From assembly GCF_013177315.1 (NCBI RefSeq), contig NZ_CP053661.1, positions 2,852,001 to 2,916,000 of the forward strand: 64,000 nt of DNA. The letters are read 5' to 3'. Below the pieces are notes generated by a model, which did no database searches, was not told the origin of the DNA, and was given only the letters and a program-made list of their open reading frames with translations. Position numbers and translations under genes: made by a program. This stretch comes from Thermoleptolyngbya sichuanensis A183. Its GTDB lineage: Bacteria; Cyanobacteriota; Cyanobacteriia; Elainellales; Elainellaceae. Shown piece by piece: positions 250 to 1,644 of the stretch. Each line of letters begins with the position of its first letter. Position 1 is the stretch's first letter.

Positions 250-1110
250 CTACGCAACGACAACTTGCGGCAGCGGCTCTTGAACGGGGGGAAGGGTGCG
301 GCCGACGATGGGGGCGATCGCCCTCACCTTTTCCACAATCGCCACCATGTCGTCTAGCGAGAGGGCCTGCCGCGCATCGGAGACAGATTTTTCGGGGTCT
401 GGGTGGCACTCGATGATCAGCCCGTCGGCTCCAGCGGCGATCGCCGCCAAAGTGAGATTCGGCACCAGTTCGCGCTTTCCGGCAGCATGGCTGGGGTCTA
501 CGATCACGGGCAAGTGGGTGATTTGCTTCAGCGCCACAACTGCGCCCAGATCTAGCACGTTGCGCGTATAGGTGTCGAAGCTGCGGATGCCCCGTTCGCA
601 CAGCATCACGTTTGGATTGCCGTGCGCCAGGATGTACTCTGCGGCCATAACGAATTCCTCAATGGTGGCAGCTAGCCCCCGCTTCAGCAGGATTGGCTTA
701 TCGACGTGGCCCAGCGCCTTCAGCAGGTCGAAGTTTTGCATATTGCGGCTGCCGATTTGCAGCACATCAGCGTAGGCGGCGATTTCTTCGATTTGGGAAA
801 CGGCCATGACTTCGGTAACGACGGGCATTCCCGTGCGATCGCGCACCGCCGCCAAAATTTCTAGCCCCTCGCGCCCCATGCCCTGGAAATCGTAGGGCGA
901 GGTGCGCGGCTTGTAGACCCCGCCCCGCAGCGCCTGCACACCCGCCACCGAAAGGCGACTGGCAACGGCATCCATCTGGGCGCGGCTTTCGACGGAGCAG
1001 GGCCCGCCGATGAGGAGCAGTTCTGACCCGCCCGCCGAAACCCGTTCGGAAATCTGAATAATGCTACTGTGGCTGGGTTCGGTCTTGAGGGTCAGCTTTG
1101 CTTTTTGCAT
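250..1110 (-). CDS. aroF: 3-deoxy-7-phosphoheptulonate (DAHP) synthase, type I beta
   Basis: This enzyme condenses phosphoenolpyruvate with erythrose 4-phosphate, the first committed step of the shikimate pathway to Phe, Tyr and Trp; it is cytosolic. The 286-residue protein shows the type I beta core: IGGPCSVES near the N-terminus, GGVYKPRTSPYDFQG, KRGLAATIEE, ERGIRSF, and IVDPSHAAGKRE before the closing IIECHPDPE. I start it at the ATG at 1110 because AGGAG lies about nine bases upstream; the longer frame would translate heptamer repeats. There is no ferredoxin-like or chorismate-mutase regulatory domain, so feedback control must come from elsewhere. The upstream region carries two aromatic leader peptides with terminators, indicating attenuation. 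The enzyme call is very sure. Confidence 0.96.
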   Translation of the reverse strand: MQKAKLTLKTEPSHSSIIQISERVSAGGSELLLIGGPCSVESRAQMDAVASRLSVAGVQALRGGVYKPRTSPYDFQGMGREGLEILAAVRDRTGMPVVTEVMAVSQIEEIAAYADVLQIGSRNMQNFDLLKALGHVDKPILLKRGLAATIEEFVMAAEYILAHGNPNVMLCERGIRSFDTYTRNVLDLGAVVALKQITHLPVIVDPSHAAGKRELVPNLTLAAIAAGADGLIIECHPDPEKSVSDARQALSLDDMVAIVEKVRAIAPIVGRTLPPVQEPLPQVVVA

Positions 1111-1171: not shown

Positions 1172-1229
1172 AACCAAAATCCAAAACCTAAAATCCAAAA
1201 TCCAAACCCCAAAATCTAAAGTCCAAAAC
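1172..1229. repeat. AATCCAA heptamer (STRR-like) repeats in the aroF 5' leader
   Basis: The stretch is built from slightly varied AATCCAAA and ACCTAAA units. Tandem heptamers of this kind are known from cyanobacteria as short tandemly repeated repetitive sequences. Here they lie in the untranslated segment between the proximal terminator and the aroF ribosome binding site. Related units recur at about 9367-9388, 16918-16944, 17049-17073 and 28001-28070. Confidence 0.7.
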
Positions 1230-1260
1230 AAAAACCCGGAACCTCTAGAGGCCCCGGGTT
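1225..1260 (-). terminator. Proximal intrinsic terminator of the aroF attenuator
   Basis: Read on the minus strand, the arm AACCCGGGGCCT (1260-1249) and its partner pair around a CTAG loop, giving a 12-bp stem that includes two G-U pairs. It is followed at once by TTTTTGTTTT. This is a classic rho-independent terminator. It lies 115 bases before the aroF start and after the proximal leader peptide, in the position of an attenuator. Confidence 0.88.
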
Positions 1261-1281
1261 GCACAATCGCGCATGACCAAC

Positions 1282-1335
1282 TTACCCGGGGCATTCCCTG
1301 GTCCAAAAAAAGTAAAAGTAAAAGTAGCGGGACAT
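1282..1335 (-). CDS. Proximal aromatic leader peptide of aroF (17 aa)
   Basis: The frame ATG (1335-1333) to TAA (1284-1282) encodes MSRYFYFYFFWTRECPG: eight of eight consecutive codons after Arg3 are Tyr, Phe or Trp. An in-frame ATG at 1344 would add MSH. No strong Shine-Dalgarno is visible, which is common in cyanobacteria. Its last codons (Pro-Gly-stop) contain CCCCGGG at 1291-1285, complementary to CCCGGGG at 1258-1252 in the terminator arm. This is the design of a trp/phe-type leader peptide: stalling on aromatic codons would free the antiterminator. The role is inferred, but the composition is far from chance. Confidence 0.85.
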   Translation of the reverse strand: MSRYFYFYFFWTRECPG

Positions 1336-1401
1336 ATGGCTCATGGGTTTGAATGTAAGTTGGGGATGCAATGGATACTGGCTGCTTAAGAAAGACCGCT
1401 T

Positions 1402-1437
1402 AAAACGCAAAAACCGCAGAGGTTGCGCTCTGCGGTT
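1402..1437 (-). terminator. Distal intrinsic terminator of the aroF attenuator
   Basis: On the minus strand AACCGCAGAG (1437-1428) pairs perfectly with CTCTGCGGTT (1421-1412) across a six-base loop, followed by TTTGCGTTTT. It lies 28 bases after the stop codon of the distal leader peptide. Its first four bases (AACC) are also part of the competing antiterminator stem. Confidence 0.85.
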
Positions 1438-1464
1438 CACCCAAGGTTCCAGGTCAAGCTGGAC

Positions 1465-1521
1465 TCACCCCAGGTGAACCTTGCCATACCAAAAGTAAAA
1501 GTAGCGGACTTGAATCGACAT
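1465..1521 (-). CDS. Distal aromatic leader peptide of aroF (18 aa)
   Basis: The frame ATG (1521-1519) to TGA (1467-1465) encodes MSIQVRYFYFWYGKVHLG, with six consecutive Tyr/Phe/Trp codons. AGG lies about seven bases upstream as a plausible ribosome binding site. The codons for Lys-Val-His contain GGTTCACC (1480-1473), which pairs with GGTGAACC (1441-1434), overlapping the left arm of the distal terminator. Its RYFYF core and the bases encoding it are repeated in the proximal leader, so the two units look like a duplication. The regulatory role is inferred from the architecture. Confidence 0.85.
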   Translation of the reverse strand: MSIQVRYFYFWYGKVHLG

Positions 1522-1609: not shown

Positions 1610-1644
1610 TGCTAACTGTAACGAAGTTTGCAAAACCTCGTCAA
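1610..1644 (-). promoter_or_regulatory. Candidate promoter for the aroF leader transcript
   Basis: On the minus strand TTGACG (1644-1639) and TACAGT (1620-1615) are separated by 18 bases, resembling a sigma70 promoter. It is placed about 90 bases before the distal leader peptide. Another weak -10-like TATAAA lies near 1681-1686, so the exact start of transcription is uncertain. Confidence 0.35.

Follow-up and report, generated by a model that had tools for sequence, protein, structure and literature searches.

Ribosome-mediated transcription attenuation is known from the trp, pheA and his attenuators of E. coli and Salmonella (the trp case is restated in PMC3641672). These have in common with the locus described here a short leader rich in codons for the end product, a terminator that competes with an antiterminator, and a biosynthetic gene under control. 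In the ilv-type multivalent attenuators of enterobacteria, one leader reads several end products (Ile, Val and Leu) of a pathway that branches. The mgtM-mgtP tandem attenuators of Salmonella mgtCBR, which their authors called "a singular example", place a pair of leader frames on a single leader mRNA, and one of the pair responds to an amino acid (Lee and Groisman 2012, PMC3641672). Aromatic leader frames before a DAHP synthase gene have been described in Corynebacterium glutamicum, where the aroF leader contains Phe-Tyr-Phe (PMC4046766), and proposed in Acholeplasma (the uORFC-13-1 aroF motif, PMC8632094). For cyanobacteria, a 2016 survey of leader genes stated that reliable data for attenuation do not exist (PMC4833913). 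The locus analyzed here very likely carries two homotypic ribosome-mediated transcription attenuators in series before aroF, which would sense a shortage of charged tRNA for Phe, Tyr or Trp; this has had no experimental test.

The window, that is, the whole 64,000-nt stretch of DNA analyzed, carries aroF on its minus strand (250..1110). The gene encodes a type I DAHP synthase of 286 aa that has no ferredoxin-like domain at its N terminus (NCBIfam, Pfam). The same genome also encodes a long AroF paralogue of 353 aa that has this domain (PF18152), which the short AroF lacks (Pfam). The 680 nt between the aroF start (ATG 1110) and a divergent ABC-transporter ATPase gene (from 1790) hold both leader units. 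An initial annotation had placed two short frames there, with runs of six and eight aromatic codons, each followed by a strong intrinsic terminator; frames and terminators were confirmed on the minus strand, the frames exactly. Leader peptide 1 (1465..1521, ATG 1521, TGA 1465), MSIQVRYFYFWYGKVHLG, has six consecutive aromatic codons, and leader peptide 2 (1282..1335, ATG 1335, TAA 1282), MSRYFYFYFFWTRECPG, has eight. An alternative in-frame ATG at 1344, nine bases upstream of the leader 2 start, would give a peptide of 20 aa (MSHMSRYFYF...), the modal length in relatives (57/107). Shuffles of the 450 nt before aroF yielded two such aromatic frames in 201 of 5000 cases (4%), so the window by itself is a weak case and conservation in relatives decides. 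No match of the window to the amino-acid leader families of Rfam (e.g., Trp_leader) was found at the gathering score, and a relaxed threshold gave chance-level matches only (E up to 5). Separately, arrays of 7-base repeats lie between terminator 2 and aroF (1174-1229, consensus CCAAAAT on the plus strand) and directly after aroF (155-242, GAAAAAC and TCTTCGT). GGGGACT-like repeats follow terminator 2 in several Nostoc loci, at a place matching the CCAAAAT array of the window.

An exact DNA pattern for RYFYFW, run over 386 genomes of the phylum, gave matches outside aroF that were mostly due to chance, and the search was therefore started from the AroF protein instead. Relatives were taken as orthologues of the short AroF (63-100% identity) in Cyanobacteriia, with genera including Nostoc, Calothrix, Brasilonema, Tolypothrix, Microcoleus, Leptolyngbya, Oculatella, Phormidesmis, Coleofasciculus and others, and 111 non-identical upstream regions were scanned. 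Of these short-aroF loci, 110 carry leader 1 and 107 carry leader 2; the 106 with both span many families. Conservation of the aromatic codons in relatives, a check set beforehand, was passed with these 106/111 loci. Frames with an aromatic run numbered 220 on the sense strand versus 1 on the antisense strand and about 22 in dinucleotide shuffles, and this sense-strand excess settles the reality of the paired leaders.

The leader 1 consensus is M(x)n-Y-F-Y-F-W-F-x-x-V-H-[RL]-[EG] (18 residues in 80/110) and that of leader 2 is M(x)n-W-F-Y-G-F-Y-F-W-P-R-x-x-S-G (20 residues in 57/107). The distance from the last Trp to the stop is exactly 8 codons in 89 of 110 leader 1 frames and 7 codons in 92 of 107 leader 2 frames. 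All three of Phe, Tyr and Trp are encoded in nearly every leader (106/110 and 104/107, respectively), which meets the membership test of a ribosome-mediated transcription attenuator that the frame be rich in codons for the end products of the pathway. The leaders together hold 302 Trp codons against 10 in aroF, and TTT makes up 85% of their Phe codons versus 30% in aroF. The run keeps its aromatic character while Phe and Tyr replace one another and codons differ at the third base (TAC/TAT, TTT/TTC). The tail codons are nearly fixed: GTT (89/89) and CAC (79/89) in leader 1, GGG (87/92) in leader 2. We infer that the variation in the run is what codon sensing needs, and the frozen tail what RNA pairing needs. 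A Shine-Dalgarno-like motif precedes only 4 of the 110 leader 1 frames (106 are without it) and 33 of the 107 leader 2 frames; with such counts, it is possible that the two leaders are translated at different rates. In family f23 (L032, L036, L038, L043, L045 and L057), the leader 2 run ends differently (FFFFT, FYFFT, FFYTG or similar), often without the final Trp, and the antiterminator register is altered in some loci.

A mechanical search, together with covariation, places terminator 1 at 1401..1438 on the minus strand (stem 1438-1428/1421-1411, followed by the T tract TTGCGTTTTA) and terminator 2 at 1223..1260 on the same strand (stem 1260-1249/1244-1233, followed by the T tract TTTGTTTTGG). 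The corresponding intervals in the initial annotation were 1437-1402 and 1260-1225, against full stems of 1438-1411 and 1260-1233 here. A terminator follows leader 1 in 110/110 loci and leader 2 in 107/107, and scores of this order were never attained in shuffled sequence; the test of an intrinsic terminator before the structural gene is met.

In both units, the tail of the leader frame base-pairs with the 5' strand of the terminator that follows it. In unit 1, the 5' arm of the antiterminator, GGTTCACC (1473..1480, minus strand), lies within the codons for KVHL and pairs with the 3' arm GGTGAACC (1434..1441), the AACC part of which doubles as the base of terminator 1. The general pairing in unit 2 is (G)TTCCGGGT with ACCCGGAA(C). 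In the window, it is GCCCCGGGT (1284..1292, minus strand), formed by the last codons of leader 2 and the first base of its stop codon, with ACCCGGGGC (1251..1259), which doubles as the 5' arm of terminator 2. Terminator and antiterminator are mutually exclusive because both need the same strand, completely so in unit 2, and in unit 1 with the exclusion confined to the hairpin base. The antiterminator overlaps the terminator arm in 108 of 110 unit 1 loci and in 107 of 107 unit 2 loci, and the complementarity of the leader tail exceeds that of shuffled tails in 106/110 and 87/107, respectively.

Compensatory change in all four helices, the terminator and antiterminator of each unit, exceeded both column shuffles and slid controls, with examples such as GGCTCACC/GGTGAGCC, AGTTCGCC/GGCGAACC, GCTCCGGGT/ACCCGGAGC and GTCCTGGGT/GCCTGGGAC. 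For the antiterminator 1 helix, 98.5% of the cells are paired and 4 of the 8 pairs show changes on both sides; for antiterminator 2, 91% are paired, with 29 double-change cells versus 9.3 in shuffles. For unit 2, counts of pairs or of pair types did not exceed those in shuffles, and the evidence for that unit consists of the cells and the covariation score. The same antiterminators were recovered by RNAalifold on the pre-terminator region. An alternative antiterminator that excludes the terminator and is conserved by covariation, a further test of membership, is thus present. A recent duplication of unit 1 as the origin of unit 2 was considered and rejected: the peptides are alike and the RNA arms are unrelated (GGTTCACC versus CCGGGT). 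A GTCATGC-like element lies 3-5 nt past the leader 2 stop codon at near-fixed spacing (about 1278-1271 in the window). It was observed in 70/107 unit 2 loci compared with only 6/110 unit 1 loci, and its role is unexplained.

A putative promoter maps to 1615..1644 on the minus strand, with TTGACG (1644-1639) separated by 18 nt from TACAGT (1620-1615), and its pattern is conserved in relatives. TTGAC-N17..19-TANNNT was detected before leader 1 in 103 of 107 loci (0 on the antisense strand, 1.15 in shuffles) at a median of about 45 nt from the leader, and in none of 104 loci between leader 1 and leader 2. With one promoter before leader 1 and none between the leaders, a single transcript is expected to run through both units into aroF. 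For the initial annotation, the lack of a transcript through the leader into the gene would have refuted the proposal; the conserved promoter points to such a transcript, in the absence of transcript data.

The first base of the last Trp codon is mostly 9-12 nt from the antiterminator arm in unit 1 and 12-15 nt in unit 2 (usually 9-16 nt overall). The leading edge of a ribosome lies about 12 nt from its A-site codon. A figure of 12-15 nt from the P site is given in PMC3641672. The spacing is therefore close to where the leading edge would be with the last Trp codon in the A site, an inference from sequence alone. Folding was computed with a ribosome mask on RNA in which the second arm of the terminator has not yet been made, and gives equilibrium predictions. 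Mean pairing over the whole terminator was a poor readout of the switch, because the antiterminator opens only the base of terminator 1, and was replaced by pairing of the terminator base and pre-terminator folding. The predicted antiterminator probability was 0.96 (unit 1) and 0.92 (unit 2) with the ribosome at the first aromatic codon, and 0.66 and 0.62 at the last Trp codon, such that a stall at the very last Trp is predicted to free the arm only partly on average. It was 0.00 at the stop codon, a zero that is built in by the mask. The test of geometry, namely that a stalled ribosome frees the antiterminator and a ribosome at the stop masks its arm, is met as a prediction only. Without a ribosome, the antiterminator is also predicted mostly to form, so nothing points to a protector hairpin like the one in the trp leader of E. 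coli. Terminator 2 of the window is predicted to be favored at equilibrium in every ribosome state (base-pair probability 0.77-0.92); readthrough must therefore rely on the antiterminator forming first, by kinetic trapping.

Covariance models of unit 1 (R1) and unit 2 (R2) were run over 145 genomes of the class. At strong scores, each unit was found at most once per genome, in tandem before short aroF, and the units occur only before short aroF or its decayed relics. Family f49 has unit 1 only, in a space too small for unit 2. In the rooted AroF tree, built without L065 (a wrongly chosen outgroup frame), the two-unit lineage L056 falls outside f49 (SH-aLRT 91), so the loss of unit 2 in f49 is the simpler reading, though it is not proven. 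In G027, which otherwise keeps only the long AroF, unit 1 is joined straight into the coding remnant of a decayed short aroF (L156, G027:C48:70500-74700, minus strand), which looks like a loss caught in progress. G465 keeps a fragment with no aroF nearby. In one Microcoleus contig, other DNA with an apparent IS200/IS605-type end stands in place of unit 1. Upstream of aroF in L110, unit 1 is missing and AAGCCGTCC...GGACGGGGCTTTAGACCC, just before leader 2, resembles an IS200/IS605-type transposon end. Unit 2 was not found in G481, a genome of the same genus as the window (85% complete, 630 contigs).

Similar leaders were not found before long aroF (24 loci), nor before pheA (20 loci) or trpE (25 loci, with one chance-like match) of relatives. 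In this enzyme family, the ferredoxin-like N-terminal domain carries allosteric inhibition. A fair reading, though an inferred one, is that one AroF isozyme is controlled at the protein level and the other at the RNA level.

The anatomy, conservation, covariation, position rule, promoter and exclusive link to short aroF are directly supported. Attenuation by leader peptides sensing Phe, Tyr and Trp before aroF, as first proposed in the initial annotation, is supported by the conservation, the terminators and the covarying antiterminators. That annotation had missed how the antiterminators pair, the presence of the promoter, the absence of unit 2 from one family and the lack of the regulatory domain in the enzyme. 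In the proposed mechanism, RNA polymerase would make the leader and a ribosome would translate it without delay. With charged tRNA for Phe, Tyr or Trp in short supply, the ribosome would stall in the aromatic run, leaving the last codons of the leader free to bind the terminator's 5' arm, and transcription would continue. If all three amino acids were plentiful, the ribosome would reach the stop codon and cover those last codons, and the terminator would form. The result would be feedback on the committed step of the aromatic pathway. Since a transcript must pass both units, two responses to one signal would multiply to set the level of readthrough. It is inferred that the leaders are translated, that ribosomes stall on them, that transcripts end early, that the supply of the amino acids governs the switch and that the effects of the two units multiply; the earlier claim that two attenuators in series sharpen the response likewise remains an inference. 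Points that weigh against the mechanism are the rarity of a Shine-Dalgarno-like motif before leader 1, the equilibrium preference for terminator 2 in the window, the merely partial release of the arm by a stall at the final Trp codon and the single unit of family f49.

A rival explanation is that only one unit regulates now, the other being a remnant or a fixed transcript filter. In its favor, family f49 manages with unit 1 alone, and terminator 2 of the window is favored in all states at equilibrium. Against it, nearly every lineage retains the two units, each with a terminator and an antiterminator that covary, and no decay was seen outside relics that also lost aroF; we regard it as unlikely. 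Less likely still is that the leaders sense the general state of translation, or a compound acting on the ribosome, and not the charging of aromatic tRNAs. A ribosome arrested in the aromatic run for any reason would free the antiterminator arm, and hydrophobic leaders do exist in drug-induced attenuators. However, the leaders encode all three end products of aroF's own pathway, F and Y interchange freely, there is no fixed arrest peptide, and the units are found only before aroF.

The short peptides could also act as peptides, as small proteins or signals, with the terminators ending separate small transcripts. Their length and aromatic core are indeed well conserved, but the covariation of the antiterminators links codons of the leader with the terminator, conservation of the tail codons acts at the RNA level, and the units are lost together with aroF; we regard this possibility as very unlikely. 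Two homotypic attenuators sensing aromatic tRNA charging remain the preferred reading.

In this reading, the locus offers strong comparative evidence for attenuation in cyanobacteria, conserved across many filamentous families, and bears on the question of tight transcription-translation coupling in these organisms. It would provide a natural test of what two same-signal attenuators in series do, a DAHP synthase without an allosteric domain under RNA control, and a regulatory element to remove or reuse in engineering aromatic products in cyanobacteria. A bolder reading, to which we incline by a narrow margin, is that of a class-wide system in which two homotypic units in series, each reading all three aromatics, take the place of the allosteric domain that the short DAHP synthase lacks, with multiplied and sharpened feedback, as the first well-supported ribosome-mediated attenuator in cyanobacteria.

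The initial annotation knew of no description of a double aromatic unit in a cyanobacterium. Similarly, we found no description of paired aroF attenuators in the open literature searched (subscription papers, e.g., Lopatovskaya et al. 2010, were outside its scope), which does not prove priority. Compared with the trp, pheA and his attenuators of E. coli and Salmonella, the cyanobacterial leaders each read all three aromatics, come as two units in series and belong to a different phylum; the 5' arm of the antiterminator is the 3' end of the leader frame, there is no clear protector hairpin, and the sequences are unrelated. The ilv-type attenuators differ in being single units for different amino acids. 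The leaders of C. glutamicum and Acholeplasma are single, have no reported Trp run and belong to other phyla, a comparison made without a test of sequence or structure homology. Finally, mgtM and mgtP respond to different signals (ATP and proline) and have no intrinsic terminators (PMC3641672), whereas both cyanobacterial units read the same three amino acids, each with its own intrinsic terminator. The mgtCBR-type test of different signals without intrinsic terminators is therefore not met, as both leaders encode Phe, Tyr and Trp and have terminators. The principle is known; what would be new, subject to proof of priority, is its doubling for one signal set, the reading of all three aromatics and the phylum.
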